From a virus: a stretch of DNA of 23,069 nucleotides. The position numbers and the translations under genes were made by a program. Numbering within the stretch: position 1 is the first letter of the stretch; every line of letters starts with the position of its first letter. The stretch spans positions 1 to 23,069 of the IMG/VR virus record IMGVR_UViG_3300010391_000141, one strand, 5' to 3'. Under the pieces are notes generated by a model. The model saw nothing but the letters and a program-made list of their open reading frames with translations. It did not search any database and was not told where the DNA came from. Positions 13,518-23,069 of this stretch are shown piece by piece.

Positions 13518-13678
13518 TTTGAAAGTCTCCTGCCGCAATCCGCGCAGAATTTCTTGCCGCTTAGCGATTTGGACCCGCATTCGCAACGAGGATCATCAAA
13601 CTTGTTCAGCTTCTCTCCGCAGTCATCGCAGAACTTGTCGGAAAAGAATTTCTTGCCATGCTTCGGACAAACTTTCAT
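13514..13678 (-). CDS. 54-residue double zinc ribbon protein
   Basis: Too short for routine gene calling but well supported. Its ATG overlaps the Gam stop (ATGA, 13675-13678) and its stop overlaps the next start (ATGA, 13514-13517). The protein begins MKVCPKHGKKFFSDKFCDDC and continues CGEKL...RCECGSKSLSGKKFCADC. Two CxxH/CxxC-type knuckles repeat the same plan, G-K-K-F-(C/F)-x-D-x-C-G, so the protein is an internal duplication of about 27 residues. It probably binds two zinc ions and could bind nucleic acid or a host protein. Confidence 0.82.
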   Translation of the reverse strand: MKVCPKHGKKFFSDKFCDDCGEKLNKFDDPRCECGSKSLSGKKFCADCGRRLSK

Positions 13679-14184
13679 CGGGGCACCTCCACGCCGTCTT
13701 TCTCGACTTTGTCGAGATCGGGCTTGGCGAAGAAAACCTCACCGCGCGCGATGCGCAGCCCGCACGGCTCAAATTCGGTGTCGCGTCCAGCAGCGAGGAT
13801 GGCGTCTTTGTTGACTTCTTCTTTCTGGCGGATGAAGAAGCCCAGCCCGCGCGACTTCAATGCGATCACCGCCGTCTCCCAGCTCCAGTGGCCGGGAATC
13901 AGCGCCACCGACTCGATCCAGCGGGCTCCAATCTTTCCGAAGGTCATCTTGAAGGAGCGCTTTCCCTTGGCCAGCTCCGCGCGCGCCGACGCAAACCACT
14001 TTTCGAGCGCCTGCTCGATGGCCTGCTCGGCGCGCATCCAGGGCGCGGCTTCCGCTTCCGCTTCGGCTTTGATCTTGATGATCTTCTCGTTCATGCGGGC
14101 TTCAATCTTTTGCCGGGCAAGCTGCGCCCGGCCCAGCTCGGCCAACAGCGCGTCTGCTTGCTCGCGTGTGCCGGGAATCTTCAT
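13675..14184 (-). CDS. gam: Mu Gam-like host-nuclease inhibitor
   Basis: 169 residues from an ATG that overlaps the upstream stop (ATGA). The Mu Gam pattern is clear: an N-terminal coiled-coil helix with ARQKIEARMNEKIIKIKAEA (near 22-41), then IEQALEKWFASARAEL, and SFKMTFGKIGARW, followed by a WETAVIALKSRG stretch. Gam proteins bind double-stranded DNA ends like Ku and protect phage DNA from RecBCD/AddAB-type nucleases. In Mu, gam is also in the semi-essential early region after A and B, as here. The conserved GxxxxR core is intact. Confidence 0.88.
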   Translation of the reverse strand: MKIPGTREQADALLAELGRAQLARQKIEARMNEKIIKIKAEAEAEAAPWMRAEQAIEQALEKWFASARAELAKGKRSFKMTFGKIGARWIESVALIPGHWSWETAVIALKSRGLGFFIRQKEEVNKDAILAAGRDTEFEPCGLRIARGEVFFAKPDLDKVEKDGVEVPR

Positions 14185-14420
14185 GGCTCCACTCCTTCGC
14201 GGATCTTCGCAAAATAGTCGTTCAGCTCCGCGGCAGCGCAGGTATGGCCGCACAGCGCGAATTCATCCTCCGCCAATGGCGGCTCGAAGGGCCGCAAGGA
14301 AAGCACACGGGAGAAGCCCGCCGCCGGACCGATCCGCACAATCCACCAGCGGTTGCCTTCCTTTTTGAGCTCTCGACACTGCCGGCAGCGCCAGGTAATG
14401 ACTTCCGACTCACTGGGCAA
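14181..14420 (-). CDS. small Cys-rich protein, probable TTG start
   Basis: 79 residues if started at TTG 14420, which has GGAGG ten bases upstream; no ATG is available between the repeat palindrome at 14441-14454 and the conserved part. Cys residues at 12 and 15 (WRCRQCREL) and 57 and 61 (ALCGHTC) suggest a zinc ribbon split by a basic/aromatic segment (EGNRWWIVRIGP). The C-terminal LNDYFAKI helix ends at the Gam overlap. Function unknown; it may bind DNA or RNA. Confidence 0.6.
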   Translation of the reverse strand: MPSESEVITWRCRQCRELKKEGNRWWIVRIGPAAGFSRVLSLRPFEPPLAEDEFALCGHTCAAAELNDYFAKIREGVEP

Positions 14421-15003: not shown

Positions 15004-15963
15004 TTATGCCGCCCGGAAGATTTCTTGCTCCGCCCGCGCCAGCAATTTCTCGTACGAAACCGCCTGGTTCTGCGGCACCCGCTGGAGCCACTCCGCGCGG
15101 TCAATGATTTTCACCACCTCGCGCGCCGTCCGCGGCTGTGCGCTCAGGAACTTCAGGTGCGACTCAGTCGGTCGCGAGATCCGCTGCGTCGCAATCTTTT
15201 GCACGTCTTTCACGGTGAGCTGCGATCCCAACAACGCGTTGATGTCCACCCGCGTGTAAAGCTGCTCCAGCTCTTCCTTGATCCGGCCATCCGCCAGCAG
15301 CATTCGCTCCATGAGCGTCCGCACGCCCATCAGCACCAGGCCGCAGGGCACCGCGTCGTAAATCCGTCGCAGCACTTCCAGGCTCTTCACATTCAGGTGG
15401 CTGGCGTCATCAATCACCAGAAGATATTCCTTGTTGATGAGTTTCCCGATGACGCGGTCTAGGACGGCGTCCGTCGCTCCGTAGGTCTGCTCCCGCAACT
15501 CCACGGCAATTTTCTGCACCAGCGTGCGCGTGGTCGTTACCGGGCTGCAAGTAACCAGCGCGCAGCCTTTTTTGCCGTCGCGCTGCTGCTCCTGCCGGTC
15601 AAGAAATTGCACTGCCGCCGTCGTCTTCCCCATCCCCGAGCGCGAGTGGATGACCACAAACTTTTTTCCTTGCCGGGCGTATTCCAGGCATCCAAAGACG
15701 GCCTGCGCCACGTCCGTCCAGACAAATCCGCCCATCAGTCCCCGGCGCTCTTGCCGCAGGAAATAGGCCCGCAGACGCTCTTGCGCGTTCGCGGGATTGC
15801 CCAGCGAGCCGTCCAGATATCGCGACATCAGCGATTGCGAGTAGCCCAGCTCTTCGGCCAGGCCGGAAATGCTCAGCTTGCGGCGTTTCAACTCCTCTTT
15901 GGCCCGATCCAGCAGTTCCCGGTCATAGCCGTCGTCTAGGATGATTGGGTCGGCTTCCGCCAT
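15004..15963 (-). CDS. B: MuB-like transposition ATPase (AAA) with N-terminal HTH
   Basis: 319 residues. N-terminal HTH: KLSISGLAEELGYSQSLMSR (29-48), as in MuB. AAA core: HSRSGMGKTT (106-115) is Walker A with K113; LLVIDDASHL (181-190) is Walker B with DD instead of the usual DE. The C-terminal helical region ends RAEQEIFRAA. MuB-type proteins bind target DNA nonspecifically as ATP filaments and deliver it to the transposase. The start is strongly supported by AGGAGGAGC. The gene overlaps a small linker gene upstream and sits next to the A-type transposase, as in Mu. A related IstB/TniB type is excluded by context. Confidence 0.92.
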   Translation of the reverse strand: MAEADPIILDDGYDRELLDRAKEELKRRKLSISGLAEELGYSQSLMSRYLDGSLGNPANAQERLRAYFLRQERRGLMGGFVWTDVAQAVFGCLEYARQGKKFVVIHSRSGMGKTTAAVQFLDRQEQQRDGKKGCALVTCSPVTTTRTLVQKIAVELREQTYGATDAVLDRVIGKLINKEYLLVIDDASHLNVKSLEVLRRIYDAVPCGLVLMGVRTLMERMLLADGRIKEELEQLYTRVDINALLGSQLTVKDVQKIATQRISRPTESHLKFLSAQPRTAREVVKIIDRAEWLQRVPQNQAVSYEKLLARAEQEIFRAA

Positions 15964-16106
15964 TGCTCCTCCTGTTGTTTCAGCGCTGCCAGAATCTCTT
16001 GCGCGATCCGCTTGCGCGCGATGCCCGATTGCAGGCCGTGCAGCCGGTAGGGATGCAGCACGTCCAGGATCACGTCAATCTGTTCCTGCTTCTTCGTCTT
16101 CGACAC
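15936..16106 (-). CDS. small linker gene between transposase and B-type ATPase
   Basis: 56 residues from a GTG at 16106 with GGAGG about 10 bases upstream (spacing slightly long). The sequence SKTKKQEQIDVILDVLHPYR and SGIARKRIAQEILAAL is a basic, helical protein. It overlaps the transposase end by 32 bp and the ATPase start by 28 bp, which supports a real gene. It could be an accessory factor of the transposition complex; no family is recognised. Confidence 0.55.
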   Translation of the reverse strand: MSKTKKQEQIDVILDVLHPYRLHGLQSGIARKRIAQEILAALKQQEEQWRKPTQSS

Positions 16107-18195
16107 CCCAGCGCTTCCTCCATTCGCTCGGATAGGTTTTGATTTCCGGCTCGTCGCTTGCGGGCTTCTCAAAGTCGGCTAATTGCGGCCCTGTCGCAAT
16201 GCCGACATCCTGTGCCTTTACCGGCCTCCTGGCTCCTGGGTCGGGGCTTCGCCCTCCCGATGGGGATTGACTCCTGTCTCCTGCTTGTCCCAGCGCGCGC
16301 GCGATGCGGTGCCCTTCCGTCATCGGCAGCACCACGGGACCACTCTGCCCCACCGCCTCCGCCAGCGGCGCTGCTTGCGCCGCCTTCGCTTCCAGCACTT
16401 CGTCCCAGGTCCGCCGCCCAGCCAGCCGCCGCTGCTGCATCTCCAAATAATCTTTGATTACGCCCCGGTCGCCCTTCTGCCGCCGCTTCACTTCCGCCAG
16501 GTCCTCTTCCGAGCTGCCGGAGGGCAGACTGCACTCCGCCATCAGCGCCCGCTCTTTTTTGCCGTCATTGATCAGCACGATCACCTGGCTCAGGTCGTCC
16601 GGGTCAATCCTGACGTCGCAGGCCAGGCCTTTCAAATTGGCGAAATCCGAATGCCAGTAGTGCTGCCCGTAAATCGAGACCCCGTTCGAGAGGATGTGCC
16701 GGTCGCGCCGGCGCATCATCAGGATCAAGAGGGCTTCTTTGGTCAGCCGGTTCACCGGATGCGGATCCCGTTGATAGGCTTCCAGCGGCGTACAGTCCAG
16801 CCGGTCGGTGGGCCTCGAATGGTATTTCGCCGCCACCCATTGACTAATCTTCTCATCCAGTTTCTCGCGCGTCAGGAATGGCGAATGAATGGGCGGTGAA
16901 CCGGCCATTCCCGCTGGGTTCAAATACCGCGCGGCCAGGTATTTTTTGTGCTCCTGGACTTGCGGCCAGAGCACGTCGTCCGGGCGTTCCTTCGGGTGCG
17001 TCCCGCACCACCCCGGCAACAGTTTCATCGCACCGCGCTCGAACGTCCCGAACCAGCGCTCGATGACTTTAGATTTGCCGTGGGATTCACCGCTCCGGCA
17101 CGAGGGGAGTGTTTTGTGCTGAAACTCGATCCCGGAAGCCTGCCAGAACTTCAGGAACTCCTGCGACAGGTAATCCTTACCATTGTCCGTGCGGATCTCC
17201 TCCGGCATCCCAAACTGCATGGCGTAGCGGTAAAGCGCTTCGAGCAGCAGCCGCACGTTCGGCCGCTCGCCCAGCGCCCAAGCCACCACGCCTGTGGCTT
17301 CGTCCTGCCACGCTGAAAGCCAGTAGCGATAGAGCCGCGGCTTACCGGTGTTGGTAAATGGTTGCCGCTCGTCCCAGGCCCACATATCCAGAACGTGATG
17401 GTCTCCCACCACAATGTGGTTGCGATGCTCTCCGCGTTCGATTCTGCCTTTGTAAAGATATTTGTTGGCCACGGCATTCCAGCCGTCCCGCGCCGCCGTC
17501 GCCACCATCGGGTTCAGCCGCAGGCACGCCCGCCGCACACTTGCGTAGCTGACGGCGAAGCCACAACCGGATTCGCCGTCATCTCGAGTCCCGAGCTTGT
17601 CGAGGGGTGAGGGATCTGCTCTTCCGCCCCGACATCTCGCGCTCTTGTACCATCCGCCCGCCCCTCGATGAACCAGTTCCATCGGTCCTGCCTTACATTT
17701 TGGACAGGTCTCCGTCACCATCTCGAACACCCAGGAGAAACCCGGCTTGATCCGCGTCAGAACCCCTTTCGGTGCCGTCTTCGGATCCCGCTGGTAGCCG
17801 TAATAGGCCTGGATCAGCTCTTCGATCTCCGGCGTGACCGTGACCCGCTGATCTTTTGTGGGGTCCACCACCAGCCCGCCGGGATGGTTTGCCAGCCCCT
17901 GCTGCTCCCGTTGCTGCTTCCGCCGCAGCCGCGCCAGCAATTTCTGTTGATCCTTGGGAAGATAGCTGATGAAGACCCGTGTTTCCTGACCGGGCTTCCC
18001 GTCTCGCCGCGCGACGCGCGCGCAAACCCCCCCGCTGCGCCATACTCGCAGTTTGGCGGTGTTGTAACTCATGGCCCAGACCTGCGCCAGCTCCCGGATG
18101 CTCGCTGTCTTCAGCCGGACCTCTTCCGGGCTGGGCCGCTCCTCGCGGTACTGCTCCGCCAGCGGTTTCAACAGATGCATGGCATTCGCGCCCAT
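16075..18195 (-). CDS. A: Mu A-like DDE transposase
   Basis: 706 residues, close to MuA length. N-terminal HTH: ASIRELAQVWAMSYNTAKLR (31-50). The catalytic triad aligns with MuA by motif: VVGDHH with D265 (MuA NGDGY), RTDNGKD with D337 (MuA TIDNTRG) and KSKVIERWFG with E379 (MuA KPVERAFG). A beta-barrel and basic region follows (TPLEAYQRDPHP, SIYGQHYWHSDFANL). A Cys-rich insert before the core (CPKC 164-167, CRGG 188-191, GCGF 210-213) is probably a zinc ribbon. A host-type repeat interrupts it, encoding GRADPSPLDKLGTRDDGES (191-209). The C-terminal 100 residues are low-complexity and partly repeat-derived. The ATG at 18195 is 3 bp past the previous stop. Confidence 0.96.
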   Translation of the reverse strand: MGANAMHLLKPLAEQYREERPSPEEVRLKTASIRELAQVWAMSYNTAKLRVWRSGGVCARVARRDGKPGQETRVFISYLPKDQQKLLARLRRKQQREQQGLANHPGGLVVDPTKDQRVTVTPEIEELIQAYYGYQRDPKTAPKGVLTRIKPGFSWVFEMVTETCPKCKAGPMELVHRGAGGWYKSARCRGGRADPSPLDKLGTRDDGESGCGFAVSYASVRRACLRLNPMVATAARDGWNAVANKYLYKGRIERGEHRNHIVVGDHHVLDMWAWDERQPFTNTGKPRLYRYWLSAWQDEATGVVAWALGERPNVRLLLEALYRYAMQFGMPEEIRTDNGKDYLSQEFLKFWQASGIEFQHKTLPSCRSGESHGKSKVIERWFGTFERGAMKLLPGWCGTHPKERPDDVLWPQVQEHKKYLAARYLNPAGMAGSPPIHSPFLTREKLDEKISQWVAAKYHSRPTDRLDCTPLEAYQRDPHPVNRLTKEALLILMMRRRDRHILSNGVSIYGQHYWHSDFANLKGLACDVRIDPDDLSQVIVLINDGKKERALMAECSLPSGSSEEDLAEVKRRQKGDRGVIKDYLEMQQRRLAGRRTWDEVLEAKAAQAAPLAEAVGQSGPVVLPMTEGHRIARALGQAGDRSQSPSGGRSPDPGARRPVKAQDVGIATGPQLADFEKPASDEPEIKTYPSEWRKRWGVEDEEAGTD
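16269..16283. repeat. short TGACTCC-type run in the transposase 3' end
   Basis: GACTCCTGTCTCCTG, about two units, in the Pro/Ser/Gly-rich C-terminal region of the transposase. Confidence 0.5.
17578..17622. repeat. host-type dispersed repeat inside the transposase zinc region
   Basis: GTCATCTCGAGTCCCGAGC then TTGTCGAGGGGTGAGGGATC and TGCTC, a copy of the GTCATC-GAG...GATCTGCT repeat. It is in frame and lengthens the loop between Cys 188 and Cys 211. Confidence 0.75.
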
Positions 18196-19231: not shown

Positions 19232-19288
19232 TCTCATGTTCAGGCTCGCCCGCACAATCTCCGCCAGGTTCTCTTGCCCGTTCGTCAT
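19232..19288 (-). pseudogene. 5' fragment of the CII-like gene left beside the inserted gene
   Basis: Starts MTNGQENLAEIVRASL, then diverges (NMRLLNHIRR) into sequence antisense to the inserted gene. The ATG overlaps the stop of the upstream gene (ATGA, 19285-19288), exactly as an operon neighbour should. It therefore looks like the original start of the CII-like gene, cut off when the plus-strand cassette arrived. The open frame continues to 18911, but only as an antisense shadow. Confidence 0.65.
19247..19273. repeat. 27-bp direct repeat, copy 2
   Basis: CGCCCGCACAATCTCCG then CCAGGTTCTC; one base differs from copy 1 at 18849-18875. Confidence 0.85.
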
Positions 19289-19917
19289 CTGATCGGGTAC
19301 TCCCTCAAAATCTTTGCAGAGGCACAGGTAAACGAAATGTTTGGATGGTTCGGGTCGGGCTCCAACTCGCCCTGTGGCTCCACCTCATAGATTGCTGCCT
19401 CTGTCAGTCCTTGTAGGAGACGCGCCATACGTCGTGCGAAGGGTAAGTCTGTCGTCACATAAACGCGATTTTCTCTATACACGCGGCCACCATTCGCCTT
19501 TAGGCCAGTCGAAGAAGATGGCAAAATCGCTGCCAATCCTGCCAGCCCGCCGTGATAAAACTTCCGCTCTGCCGAAGGTCCTTGTGCAGCCGTAGGCGGA
19601 ACACCATTCCGCCGCCGCTCGCTAATTCGCTTAGCTAATGCCGCCTCGATGGCGGCCCCGATTCGATGTGATTTGGATATACCATAGGCCACTTTGCAGA
19701 CATGCTGCCGCGACACGCCGCATTTCCGTGCCACCTCCGACTCGATGCCCCGAAATTGCCGCAAGAGTACCCGGCGTTCCCGTTTGCTGCCCGCCAGAGA
19801 TGTATTGCGCCTCTCTTGCCTTTGGTCTCGCCGCGCGCGGCTTGTCCCCTCTGCTATCAGCGCCAAACCGATGCTGTGGATGCTGAATCCGAGTTCTAGC
19901 AGCGTTTTTGTTCGCAT
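19285..19917 (-). CDS. HTH domain fused to an Arr-like ADP-ribosyltransferase domain
   Basis: 210 residues from ATG 19917; an upstream TTG (19986) in the same frame is possible, so the start is uncertain. Residues about 50-98 hold an HTH unit (EVARKCGVSRQHVCKVAYGI then SHRIGAAIEAALAKR) like those of the two small upstream genes. The C-terminal 90 residues follow the rifampin ADP-ribosyltransferase (Arr) plan: KFYHGG with H122, a Gly/Ser/Thr loop (PSSSTG), RVYVTTDLPFA with Y153, and YEVEPQGELEPDPN with D188. This H-Y-D set is the Arr active site, which uses NAD+ to ADP-ribosylate rifamycins or other targets. Here the substrate is unknown; the HTH could direct the enzyme to DNA, or to RNA polymerase at a promoter. 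Early position suggests early expression. A repressor-like or toxin role is possible. Confidence 0.72.
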   Translation of the reverse strand: MRTKTLLELGFSIHSIGLALIAEGTSRARRDQRQERRNTSLAGSKRERRVLLRQFRGIESEVARKCGVSRQHVCKVAYGISKSHRIGAAIEAALAKRISERRRNGVPPTAAQGPSAERKFYHGGLAGLAAILPSSSTGLKANGGRVYRENRVYVTTDLPFARRMARLLQGLTEAAIYEVEPQGELEPDPNHPNISFTCASAKILREYPIR

Positions 19918-20006
19918 CACTCGTGCTCTGTCAGTTGTTTGGCCGTCAATTCTTCCGTCCGATGTATAAAAGCTGCCATTGACCAATCCGGTCCGCGCAT
20001 CGCACT

Positions 20007-20309
20007 CTAGCTCGCGTGCGCCAACTCGCTCTCCAATTCGGCCGCCTGCCGCCGCGAAAGCTCCGCCGCGATGTTCCGCATCACTCGCTTCGAGGTCGCC
20101 TTGCGGTGGAAGACGCGGCTGTAGAACGACGGATCTTTGTCCCGCCCCCGCTGGCACGCGGCCGTCAGCAGCCCCGGATATCGCCGCAGCAGCCGGATGC
20201 GGTCGCCCTTCTGGCCTGGGACTACCGACAAATCTGGGTGATCGCGGCGCTCCACCATGCTCCGCATTGCCATCTGGAGATTACCTAACGATGCTTCGAA
20301 CTGGCCCAT
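20007..20309 (-). CDS. small HTH protein, paralogue 2
   Basis: 100 residues; the ATG at 20309 is in a TGATG overlap with the previous stop (a GTG one codon earlier is also possible). The C-terminal half, IRLLRRYPGLLTAACQRGRD with FYSRVFHRKATSKRVMRN and IAAELSRRQAAELE, matches its upstream neighbour almost position by position. It looks like a single HTH domain with a basic recognition helix. The N-terminal 40 residues (FEASLGNLQMAMRSMVERRD) are different. It is probably an early DNA-binding regulator in the place of Mu Ner. Confidence 0.72.
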   Translation of the reverse strand: MGQFEASLGNLQMAMRSMVERRDHPDLSVVPGQKGDRIRLLRRYPGLLTAACQRGRDKDPSFYSRVFHRKATSKRVMRNIAAELSRRQAAELESELAHAS

Positions 20310-20551
20310 CACGCCGCCTCCCCCTGGGAATCTTGGGCTTGGCGACGCGCCAACTCCGCCAGGATCGCGTTTCGCACGCGCTCGGAAGTTGTCGCGCCAT
20401 GAAAGACGCGACAGACGTGGCTCACCCGTACTCGATGACGCCGCGCCACGGCGCTGAGCAGTCCTGGATATTCCCGCAAAAGCCGCCTGCGATCGCGCTT
20501 TCGCGTGGGGATTGTGCTAATCTCAATTTCGCTTGCTTGAGGCAAAGACAT
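20309..20551 (-). CDS. small HTH protein, paralogue 1, first gene of the early operon
   Basis: 80 residues from ATG 20551; the upstream extension lies in the promoter and is rejected. It reads RRRLLREYPGLLSAVARRHR, then VRVSHVCRVFHGATTSERVR and NAILAELARRQAQD, a compact HTH domain with a basic N-terminal arm. It starts about 5 bases after the predicted transcription start, without a ribosome-binding site, so it may be leaderless. The operator-like motif at 20514-20526 lies inside its 5' end. By position it corresponds to Mu Ner, a small early DNA-binding repressor. Confidence 0.72.
   Translation of the reverse strand: MSLPQASEIEISTIPTRKRDRRRLLREYPGLLSAVARRHRVRVSHVCRVFHGATTSERVRNAILAELARRQAQDSQGEAA
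20514..20526 (+). promoter_or_regulatory. operator-like motif GTGCTAATCTCAA, copy 1
   Basis: 12 of 13 bases match the copy at 20591-20603, in the same orientation and 77 bp apart. It lies just downstream of the leftward start site, inside the first early gene. Confidence 0.5.
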
Positions 20552-20561
20552 AACAGTGCCG

Positions 20562-20590
20562 ATGGTAGTGCCACTGGCAAGGATTGTCAA
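20562..20590 (-). promoter_or_regulatory. leftward early promoter TTGACA-17-TACCAT
   Basis: On the minus strand a perfect TTGACA (20590-20585), 17 bases, and TACCAT (20567-20562). The predicted start is near 20555, four to five bases before the first early gene. The -35 abuts the GTG start of the divergent repressor, so repressor binding at the adjacent motif could block it. It is the strongest -35 in the intergenic region. Confidence 0.55.
20569..20579. promoter_or_regulatory. palindrome TGCCA-C-TGGCA in the early promoter spacer
   Basis: Perfect 11-bp palindrome between the -35 and -10 of the leftward promoter, in a place where a dimeric repressor or Ner-like protein would block polymerase. 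Confidence 0.4.
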
Positions 20591-20603
20591 GTGCTAATTT
20601 CAA
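20591..20603 (+). promoter_or_regulatory. operator-like motif GTGCTAATTTCAA, copy 2
   Basis: Covers the first codons of the repressor and touches the leftward -35. With copy 1 it brackets the early promoter. Confidence 0.5.
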
Positions 20604-21397
20604 CTTTTCGCGATGCCCTGATAACACTCAGGGAACAAAGGGGATGGACACAGATCCAACTCGCAGTAAGGCTGCGGCAGAGAGAAAATACGGTGATTCG
20701 TTGGGAGCTCGGGCTGCGGCATCCATCGAAAGAACTTTGTGAGAAGTTAGCCCTACTCTGCGATGGCGAGCCGTCCCGGTTTTTTGCGAAGAAGGCCGGA
20801 CTCCCAGAAGAGGACATAGAATATCTCAGCAGGTCCGCCCGCGAAGACCGCCTGGAGCTTATCCGCAAGATGTATATTGGAGACCGCGAACGCCGGAATG
20901 CTCACGATCAGAAGGCCATGTCCACCGAAGTCGCCAGCGCCGAATCTGTCGCTCTCCGCGCCGTCCAAATCCTCACCGAGCAGGCTGCCGCCGGCCAACA
21001 ATCCGCCCTCAAGACACTCAAAGACCTACCCGATAAGTTGAATGAGGCGACAACCAAACCTTCGAGCTTGCCTGGCGCCGTCCCTGGTCCTGCTTTGGAA
21101 GAGAAGCAACCGAAGATTGTTGCGCCAGTGTCCGAGCAGCCCTGGTATGATTTGTTGCGAAAAGTTCTGCGAAGCGGGGAGCAGATAGCTATCGAGGCGG
21201 TGCAGAAAAACCTGGAGCTCATGTCGCGCTATGGGATGCGGGACTCCAGTCCCGACAACCTGATCGCCTTCCCCGGGCCCGGCCCGCCCGGAAGGCCAGA
21301 TGAGATATATAATGATGCGGCGACTGAGCGCCTCCAGCTCCTGCTGGAGCTGGCGGCCTATTACCTCGCGCTCTCCCGCGCGGCAGTGCCCAAGTAA
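20591..21397 (+). CDS. XRE-family prophage repressor
   Basis: 268 residues from GTG 20591, with AAGGA 7 bases upstream; the longer open frame to the left is antisense to the HTH genes. HTH_3 domain at 8-57: LREQRGWTQIQLAVRLRQRE and NTVIRWELGLRHPSKEL. A helical linker follows (DIEYLSRSAREDRLELIRKM), then a region with KTLKDLPDKLNEAT and a C-terminal helical part (WYDLLRKVLRSGEQIAIEAV, ERLQLLLELAAYYLALSR) that may mediate oligomerisation. No S24 Ser/Lys self-cleavage site is seen, so induction would not be by the LexA-like route. It is divergent from the early operon, as is c in Mu, and probably keeps it silent. Confidence 0.85.
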   Translation: MLISTFRDALITLREQRGWTQIQLAVRLRQRENTVIRWELGLRHPSKELCEKLALLCDGEPSRFFAKKAGLPEEDIEYLSRSAREDRLELIRKMYIGDRERRNAHDQKAMSTEVASAESVALRAVQILTEQAAAGQQSALKTLKDLPDKLNEATTKPSSLPGAVPGPALEEKQPKIVAPVSEQPWYDLLRKVLRSGEQIAIEAVQKNLELMSRYGMRDSSPDNLIAFPGPGPPGRPDEIYNDAATERLQLLLELAAYYLALSRAAVPK

Positions 21398-21417: not shown

Positions 21418-21855
21418 ATGCGCATCGTGGCCTATTGTATTCTGCTCCTCTTTTCTCTTCCCCCTGCGTTGTCCGCGGCGGATAAAGTCATCCCAAGAAA
21501 CGCCACCATCTACATCGAGGAAATGGAAGACGATTTCGACGGCTATCTGCGCGCCGAATTCGTCAAAAAGAAAATCCCTTTGAAAGTCCTGCTATCGCTT
21601 GAAGGGGCTGACCTGGTTCTAACCGGGACAGCCACGAAGGAAGAAAAACGCTCTTGGCATGAAGGCTGGCTCACGAGTACGAAAGATCATACGACCTCAA
21701 ATGTCATGATTGTGGACCCCAAAACCAATCAGATGCTCTGGGCAAGTGAGGCTGGGGACCGCTCGCTTTGGTGGGGTGCCCTCCGGCGCGGTGGAGCCAG
21801 AAAAGTAGCGGATCGCCTGGCAAAGAACATCAAAAAGGTGATCCGGGATAAATAG
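21418..21855 (+). CDS. secreted protein of an Acidobacteriota-type family, cargo
   Basis: 145 residues with AAAAGGAG eight bases before the ATG. A Sec signal peptide is clear (MRIVAYCILLLFSLPPALSA, cleavage after residue 20). The mature part has ATIYIEEMEDDFDGYLRAEF, then KKIPLKVLLSLEGADLVLTG, and VMIVDPKTNQMLWASEAGD, a layout I associate with small exported proteins of Acidobacteriota in which a tag-like TIYI...FDGYL strand leads. No Cys, no catalytic motif. It follows the repressor by 20 bp in the same direction, so it may be co-expressed in the lysogen as a lysogenic conversion gene. Confidence 0.75.
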   Translation: MRIVAYCILLLFSLPPALSAADKVIPRNATIYIEEMEDDFDGYLRAEFVKKKIPLKVLLSLEGADLVLTGTATKEEKRSWHEGWLTSTKDHTTSNVMIVDPKTNQMLWASEAGDRSLWWGALRRGGARKVADRLAKNIKKVIRDK

Positions 21856-21857
21856 AG

Positions 21858-22058
21858 ATGCCCGTTTCAGACGCCGACAAACAACTGGCCGCGCAAATCA
21901 TTGCTGCTATGCTTTCAAGCCGGAGCGGTCCAGCGATGTTTAACGCAACCACGCCAAAGGATCAGCAATTCGAGGCTATATGGAAACGTATTCTGGAGGC
22001 TGTGGCGCCGCCCCAAACACCGGATCCTGCCGCCCATTCAGAATCAGGCAAGCCTTGA
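21858..22058 (+). CDS. small hypothetical protein after the secreted protein gene
   Basis: 66 residues, MPVSDADKQLAAQIIAAMLS ... QQFEAIWKRILEAV, starting 2 bp after the previous stop, with no strong ribosome-binding site. It is helical and ends in a Pro-rich tail (APPQTPDPAA). Its last 83 bp overlap a minus-strand frame (21976-22140), and I cannot say which one is dominant; both could be real as a convergent pair. Confidence 0.5.
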   Translation: MPVSDADKQLAAQIIAAMLSSRSGPAMFNATTPKDQQFEAIWKRILEAVAPPQTPDPAAHSESGKP

Positions 22059-22140
22059 GGATCCGCGCGATCTCCGAGGTGGTAAGACCCTCTAGCGCCT
22101 TTTGTACCGCCTCGATCCGTTTGAGCGTTTCTGCATCCAT
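21976..22140 (-). CDS. possible small helical protein on the minus strand
   Basis: 54 residues from ATG 22140: MDAETLKRIEAVQKALEGLT then TSEIARILKACLILNGRQD. This is a plausible coding helix pair, perhaps a short DNA-binding protein. GGAGG lies too far upstream (about 15 bases), with TATACT between, so the start could be leaderless. The last ~28 codons are antisense to the previous gene. Confidence 0.35.
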   Translation of the reverse strand: MDAETLKRIEAVQKALEGLTTSEIARILKACLILNGRQDPVFGAAPQPPEYVSI

Positions 22141-22465
22141 GCTCAAAGTATACCACCTCCCCAAACACCAGGCCATCCCGCTTAATAAAGATGTCATCCC
22201 GCGCGAGGCCCCCAGGCTGACGAGGGACCTGCTTTTTGCCTTTGCCTTGCGATTCCTGATTCCTGAATACTGAGCCCCGAATGCTGTTTCCTGTCCCCTA
22301 TATATAATGATAGCCCGCTCGGCCTGTCCTGCCTGCCCTGAGCAAAGTCGAAGGGAGCGAAGTAGAAGGGCCTCTCCGAAACTTCACTTCTCCCTGCTTT
22401 CCTGTCAAAACCCCGTCACTTCGCCCCCAAACCGTGTCGCCAGGGGTCTTTTTAGCGATTCCCGC
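22141..22465. other. non-coding region with host-type repeats
   Basis: No gene supported. It holds a TCATCCCGCGCGAGG...GACCTGCTTTTTG repeat (22192-22240), a TGATTCC run (22251-22273), an AT-rich TATATATAATGAT stretch (22299-22311) and CCCTGAGCAAAGTCGAAGGG (22336-22355). The open frames crossing it are repeat-driven. Confidence 0.6.
22251..22273. repeat. TGATTCC-type run
   Basis: GATTCCTGATTCCTGAATAC then TGA; about three units, intergenic. Confidence 0.65.
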
Positions 22466-22482
22466 CACGTTCTGCAAACTCC
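22466..22482 (+). repeat. terminal repeat R1 (candidate transposase-binding site)
   Basis: CACGTTCTGCAAACTCC, identical over 17 bp to R4 at 22829-22845. It is preceded by TTAGCGATTCC, which also recurs at 22778-22788. Confidence 0.55.
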
Positions 22483-22524
22483 AAGGAAGTAAGTAACGTT
22501 TTTCGAGCAGATTCGTGCGCAGAA

Positions 22525-22541
22525 CCCGTTCCGCAAAGTCC
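22525..22541 (+). repeat. terminal repeat R2, diverged
   Basis: CCCGTTCCGCAAAGTCC; 14 of 17 bases match R1. It starts 59 bp after R1. Confidence 0.45.
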
Positions 22542-22638
22542 CCAAACTGCACCATTCTTGGTGCAATCCTATTGGTACTACCCGCAATCGGCTCGGTCGC
22601 GCGTTTCAGCACTCAGGGCCAGAACTCGCCCCCAAAAT

Positions 22639-22732
22639 GTACCCTGGGAAAATATGTCCCTTGTACCCTGGGGGTTTCCCTATGAATTCAATTGGTTGGG
22701 AACTATTTTGGCCCGCTTTTTCCCCAGGGTAC
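22639..22732. repeat. GTACCCTGGG direct and inverted repeats
   Basis: GTACCCTGGG at 22639-22648, GTACCCTGGGG at 22663-22673 and its exact reverse complement CCCCAGGGTAC at 22722-22732; a partial fourth (CCGGGGTAC) lies at 22802-22810. The inverted pair encloses 48 bp. It may be a second protein-binding motif of the phage end, or an RNA/DNA stem. Confidence 0.55.
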
Positions 22733-22736
22733 AGAC

Positions 22737-22753
22737 CCGCTTTGCACAACGTG
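22737..22753 (-). repeat. terminal repeat R3, inverted
   Basis: The minus strand reads CACGTTGTGCAAAGCGG, matching the first 12 bases of R1 with one change. Inverted orientation of one site among several recalls the arrangement of MuA sites at attL. Confidence 0.45.
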
Positions 22754-22828
22754 ATAGTTTTGTTGATATCAGACCACTTAGCGATTCCACATCCGGTTCC
22801 GCCGGGGTACAAATCGCCATTTTTCACC

Positions 22829-22845
22829 CACGTTCTGCAAACTCC
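22829..22845 (+). repeat. terminal repeat R4
   Basis: CACGTTCTGCAAACTCC, exact copy of R1. Confidence 0.55.
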
Positions 22846-22861
22846 CGCAATTATCACAACT

Positions 22862-22950
22862 TACAAGCCTCCCCATTATCTCTCACCCACTCTATACTTT
22901 ACCCGCCCTCTCCCGCCCTCTCCCACCTACTCCCGCCTCCCCCCCCATCC
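22862..22950 (+). other. pyrimidine-rich tract next to the prophage end
   Basis: Nearly all C/T on the plus strand, with CCCGCCCTCT exactly duplicated in tandem (22902-22911 and 22912-22921) and a C8-type run near 22939-22946. No gene is present. Confidence 0.6.
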
Positions 22951-22960
22951 CTGCAAACTC
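22951..22960 (+). repeat. terminal repeat R5 (outermost, partial)
   Basis: CTGCAAACTC, the core of R1, followed by ACTAAGGCAGCA. A terminal CA of a Mu-type end could be at 22968-22969 or 22971-22972. Confidence 0.4.
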
Positions 22961-22969
22961 ACTAAGGCA

Positions 22970-23069
22970 GCAAAAAGTTAATTGCTTCTCACTTTTCACT
23001 GATCACTGGCTTGCGCGAAGCGGGAGGGGCGGAGGGCATCTACCGGCAGGGGGGGCTTGCCGGTGAGCA
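22970..23069. other. probable flanking host DNA
   Basis: Contains TTCTCACTTTTCACTGATCA, a host-type TTCACT run, and an inverted repeat ACCGGCA / TGCCGGT (23042-23048 and 23058-23064) that could be a terminator-like hairpin. No gene is visible in this short end. Confidence 0.4.

Follow-up and report, generated by a model that had tools for sequence, protein, structure and literature searches.

The window analysed here is the whole of an IMG/VR virus record of 23,069 bases, and its genes follow the classical Mu order (Table 1). Gam, GemA, terminase, portal and capsid genes are co-directional, all of them on the minus strand, as in the gene cluster of Mu-like phages (saltoviruses), and the gene of the MuB-like AAA+ ATPase adjoins the A gene, another mark of the saltoviruses. 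Judged by its predicted MuA-like transposase, MuB-like ATPase, Gam and GemA proteins, the element belongs to the Mu-like transposable phages. On the side of the head genes the contig ends just past the capsid gene, and the right end of the phage lies outside the record.

The ORF that includes the repressor matched HTH_3 at residues 216-263, as well as phage repressor PHROGs. Three further reading frames deserve a mention. A product of the early region (19285-20157) has a rifampin ADP-ribosyltransferase-like (Arr-ms) domain at its C-terminus, the ThyX-type thymidylate synthase is borne by the phage at 9961-10614, between the HNH and GemA genes, and a small ORF on the minus strand (21976-22197), weakly matching HTH_23, overlaps the plus-strand ORF 21858-22058. 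No tRNA was found, and 22298-22981 gave no Rfam match.

Table 1. Coordinates of the genes, repeats and putative end features in the window
Feature	Position	Strand	Remarks
HNH protein, ThyX, GemA, amidase endolysin, terminase, portal, head morphogenesis protein, capsid protein	after Gam	-	
Mu Gam-like end-protection protein	13675-14253	-	phrog_491, E=1.2e-27
MuB-like AAA+ target-selection ATPase	15004-15963	-	phrog_296 DNA transposition protein, E=2.8e-36; AAA_22/TniB
MuA-like DDE transposase	16075-18195	-	706 aa; Pfam Mu-transpos_C, phrog_310
Regulators	between repressor and transposase genes	-	
Candidate operator repeats GTGCTAATYTCAAYTT	20514-20529, 20591-20606		direct repeats flanking early promoter-like site 20590-20562(-)
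HTH repressor	20612-21397	+	3' part of ORF 19979-21397, start codon not fixed
Unassigned protein	21418-21855		
Small ORF	21858-22058	+	
Non-coding kilobase	22059-23069		
Innermost full copy, GGAGTTTGCAGAACGTG reading inward	22466-22482	-	exact
14/17 copy CCCGTTCCGCAAAGTCC, GGACTTTGCGGAACGGG reading inward	22525-22541	-	
Second array, TGTACCCTGGGG-type sites	22638-22811		22638(+), 22662(+), 22722(-), 22800(-)
Inverted copy CCGCTTTGCACAACGTG	22737-22753	+	12/17 overall; 12/13 over core TTTGCACAACGTG, 22741-22753
Full copy, GGAGTTTGCAGAACGTG reading inward, candidate L2	22829-22845	-	exact; ~128 bp from putative terminus
Outermost partial copy CTGCAAACTC, GAGTTTGCAG reading inward, candidate L1	22951-22960	-	10/10 to core
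Putative phage terminus	22961-22972		outside-in 5'-TGCTGCCTTAG, TG at 22972/22971; alternative TG 22969/22968; from sequence and site offset
Possible host flank	22973-23069		carries TTTTCACTGATCACTG at 22993-23008, heptamer-type string common in probable host order

The repeat cluster

The non-coding kilobase holds a cluster of repeats whose full copies share the 17-mer CACGTTCTGCAAACTCC. Its two exact occurrences have one more base in common on the left, giving the 18-mer CCACGTTCTGCAAACTCC at 22465-22482 and 22828-22845, whereas the outermost copy matches them over 10 bp only. A search of the whole window for CACGTTCTGCAAACTCC with up to three mismatches found 3 copies, against 0.03 expected by chance. 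When the exact copies were masked, three further local matches scoring at least 8 were left in 22400-23069, against a mean of 0.17 in dinucleotide shuffles, and in 0 of 60 shuffles of this region were three such matches reached. The other 22.4 kb of the window gave 0.21 matches of this score per 670 bp, and the top direct-repeat diagonal scored 18, against a shuffle maximum of 12. The cluster is therefore non-random. The original prediction had described five copies of about 17 bp within 500 bp (two exact, one 14/17, one inverted and one partial outermost copy), beyond the last gene at the regulatory end of the element. All five were located, far above the shuffles and confined to the final 500 bp of the contig, and they lie outside the repressor operon, in the place that attL occupies in Mu.

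It is very unlikely that these copies resemble each other by chance or through low complexity, or that they stem from a simple, recent and functionless duplication. The succession TCGCCCCCAAA, TTAGCGATTCC, motif does occur twice (22421/22452/22466 and 22626/22778/22829), which hints at an old local duplication. Nevertheless, exact conservation is limited to the 17-mer while its surroundings have diverged, and a duplication or chance would have to account for three more copies, in both orientations, which the shuffles do not match.

A second family of repeats, which is not in the original prediction, is interleaved with the first. The four TGTACCCTGGGG sites (two exact, one with 1 mismatch and one with 2) stand in + + - - order and form nested inverted repeats lying between the copies of the end motif. 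TGTACCCTGGGG was not found repeated in the host-order DNA sampled, and the TGTACCC array, folded as single-stranded DNA, did no better than shuffles (z = -0.8).

Copies spread over 490 bp in mixed orientation, with a palindromic TGTACCCTGGGG array between them, could also be a regulatory array, serving the repressor or some other regulator of the phage as operators or as an enhancer, the true end then being outside the contig; actually, the contig stops only about 100 bp past the last copy, and the true end could be missing. We consider this unlikely, although it is the most serious of the alternatives. Relative to the repressor operon the cluster lies downstream, and it is not upstream of a gene; in 22298-22981 there is neither a sigma-70-type promoter-like site nor, among the ORFs tested, any with a Pfam match. 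Furthermore, the repressor and early promoter region has its own repeats, GTGCTAATYTCAAYTT, which are unrelated to the end motif, and the end motif is not present there; as a repressor operator, the motif was rejected on these grounds.

The transposase and the ends of related elements

The transposase matched Mu-transpos_C at E=2.9e-9 and phrog_310 at E=1.1e-53, and D265, D337 and E379, its catalytic residues, do not vary among 23 aligned transposase sequences. When a profile of 23 relatives was compared with solved structures, TnsB chains were matched with E-values down to 2e-72, and MuA with 1e-57 (4fcy) and 3e-29 (1bcm); an AlphaFold model of the transposase (mean pLDDT 70) matched the same TnsB and MuA chains. 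On the basis of these profile and predicted-model matches, the transposase belongs to the MuA/TnsB superfamily. Enzymes of the MuA type and of the TnsB type both bind several sites at the ends of their elements. Tn7 and CAST elements, whose TnsB proteins are the best solved-structure matches of the transposase family, likewise have multiple transposase sites at their ends; however, they are not phages and have no capsid or terminase genes.

Relatives were sought by scanning viral sequences with the whole transposase, a fragment of it, two alignments, the terminase (alone and aligned) and the B protein, and by genome scans. No close relative with ends was found in these viral and genome collections, the scans yielding only two contigs, L209 and L032. 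The closest transposase is that of L209 (IMGVR_UViG_3300037264_008691; L209:9065-11158), 38-39% identical overall and 64% over the catalytic segment. This contig has a homologous terminase, portal and repressor region, but its late genes run from the repressor in the opposite direction, its ends are elsewhere and the motif is absent. Late genes divergent from the early genes, as in L209, are the BcepMu-like layout. Because these late genes occupy the attL position, L209 is uninformative on the conservation of the motif. L032 has a terminase 79-81% identical; the contig ends inside the tail genes and no transposase was found in it.

A putative zinc ribbon (C164, C167, C188 and C211, residues 164-211) precedes Igamma-like helices in the transposase, and is also seen in that of L209, whereas it is absent from the other relatives aligned. 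A speculative and rather improbable extension of these observations would be that this phage and L209 form a small, undescribed MuA-like clade which recognises its ends by the zinc ribbon before the Igamma-like helices. Its left end would be compound, with five transposase sites in both orientations over about 490 bp, placed around the nested-palindromic TGTACCCTGGGG array, to which the N-terminal winged-helix domain would bind as to a built-in enhancer.

Viral contigs were also scanned with the motif itself. The 30 stretches retrieved are, by our own estimate, about the number due to chance, and no cluster in a Mu-like context was among them. One record (IMGVR_UViG_3300049491_000829) has a 24-bp tandem repeat, CAGTTTGGTCACGTTCTGCAAACT, in two places about 31 kb apart (L010 7585-7745 and L027 1031-1166); the 16 bases that it has in common with the motif are probably a coincidence.

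Regarding known ends, the record of Bacillus phage BalMu-1 (KP063903) starts and ends TG...CA; its left end has sites at 13, 120 and 142 bp, its right end at 13 and 35 bp. Its MuA-like transposase is of the same broad family and it also has several short left-end sites, the first of them 13 bp from the terminal TG. However, its site is GCAAARTGAKAAAA, its transposase is only 24% identical, its three left sites lie within about 155 bp and both of its ends are known. The D3112-group Pseudomonas phages have 22-bp sites at 10, 93 and 124 bp (PMC4378225), and KS10 has four 15-base sites (PMC2628397). Mu and the D3112 group (PMC4378225) resemble our phage in the order of their genes and in three imperfect copies close to the left end, the outermost of them about 10 bp from the end; their terminal TG may have its counterpart in the TG at 22972/22971. 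Here the motif is about 17 bp and of unrelated sequence, one copy is inverted and inner copies stand at about 432 and 491 bp. Related MuA-like/AAA elements of the probable host order, whose transposases are 30% identical, terminate in three sites of about 22 bp in tandem, CTGCAACgCAATTCAAACATTA; such elements (L357-L360; genomes G358 and G332) are apparently inserted at tRNA-like sequences.

Measured from a terminus at 22972, the sites of our phage start at about 13, 128, 220 (the inverted copy), 432 and 491 bp. The first two offsets fit the comparands, and the outermost sites in transposase relatives lie about 10-13 bp from the terminus, against 13 bp here; the inner two are unusually far in.

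The putative terminus, its flank and the probable host

The TG at 22972/22971 stands 13 bp outside the outermost site, and read from 22972 outside-in the sequence is TGCTGCCTTAGTGAGTTTGCAG; TG dinucleotides are common, and this one by itself says little about the end. A terminus at 22968-22972, as originally proposed, is plausible from the sequence and the site offset. Mu-like phages make a 5- or 6-bp duplication of their target site, and the contig has a single junction candidate. At least 26 among the matches listed from 397 host-order genomes pile on 22993-23008 (counted by hand) and almost none fall at 22951-22985, which is consistent with a junction lying somewhere from 22961 to about 22988. 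Since host-type repeats also occur inside the phage, this pile-up does not prove the junction. A search for an empty site with the last 170 bp gave short matches only, which accumulate at the heptamer string (22989-23008) and over a stretch of 25 bp, and did not fix the junction either. The 25-bp stretch, at the very end of the contig, resembles a segment, LTGKPPLP, from what we take to be the gene of a family 31 glycoside hydrolase; this resemblance is probably due to chance.

The REPs at 22192-22232 and 22331-22358 are common to the genomes of an order that was reached from an Acidobacteria MAG (L129). TGTCATCCCGAGCGAG has 7-12 occurrences in each of three genomes of this order (0 in the control), GCCTGCCCTGAGCGAAGTCGAAGGG is abundant in one, and the G+C of these genomes is 61-62%, against 61% in the window. 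From the shared REPs and the G+C we infer a host in or near this order, presumably one of Acidobacteriota.

The same REPs bring up another reading of the last kilobase, namely that 22060-23069 is host DNA, the motif a host intergenic repeat and the phage end near 22060-22190. Repeated as they are in host-order genomes, the REPs at 22192 and 22331 keep such an earlier phage end alive, as does the host-type heptamer string at 22993-23008. Nevertheless, the same REP also occurs among the phage genes of the window (5719 and 8423) and recurs in five positions of L032 (L040/L041), the contig of a related phage, and therefore the REPs cannot mark the last kilobase as host DNA. The motif does not behave as a host repeat either. 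It had 0 exact matches in 247 genomes. When one mismatch was allowed, 150 genomes from the order that bears the REPs gave 14 matches, and the reversed pattern, used as a control, gave about 12; nor was the motif enriched in 1.2 Mb of DNA from the host order. The original prediction had named copies widespread in the host genome as a result that would refute it; in DNA of the presumed host order the counts are at chance level. The motif as a REP was rejected for this reason, and we regard it as very unlikely that the last kilobase is host DNA. The presence of Acidobacteriota-type intergenic REPs among phage genes, in the window and in L032, is an observation in its own right.

Probable recognition of the phage end

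The motif is most probably the site by which the MuA-like transposase of the phage itself recognises the phage end, at the attL of a Mu-like phage. Binding by the transposase is the best reading because the repeats are non-random, the gene set is that of Mu, the position is attL-like and relatives have multi-copy ends, and because the motif is neither a host repeat nor an operator. The prediction of a transposase-binding phage end is thus supported in part: the Mu-like nature of the element, the location and the BalMu-1/D3112-like outer geometry agree with it, but the two innermost copies are farther in than in any comparand. We are less confident of the exact terminal base than of the motif as an end site.

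In such a left end, several transposase protomers would sit on the clustered sites GGAGTTTGCAGAACGTG (read inward from the end). The protomer on the outermost site would cut just outside it, most likely beside the TG at 22972/22971; its partner sites would help to bring the left and right ends together ahead of replicative transposition. The two inner copies and the inverted one would presumably serve as transposase sites as well.

This left end would be an ordinary one for Mu-like phages, and the picture of how such phages work is unchanged. If our reading is right, the left terminus has been placed for a Mu-like phage whose hosts are probably Acidobacteriota, and the site sequence may serve to find right ends, prophages and insertion sites of the group in metagenomes.
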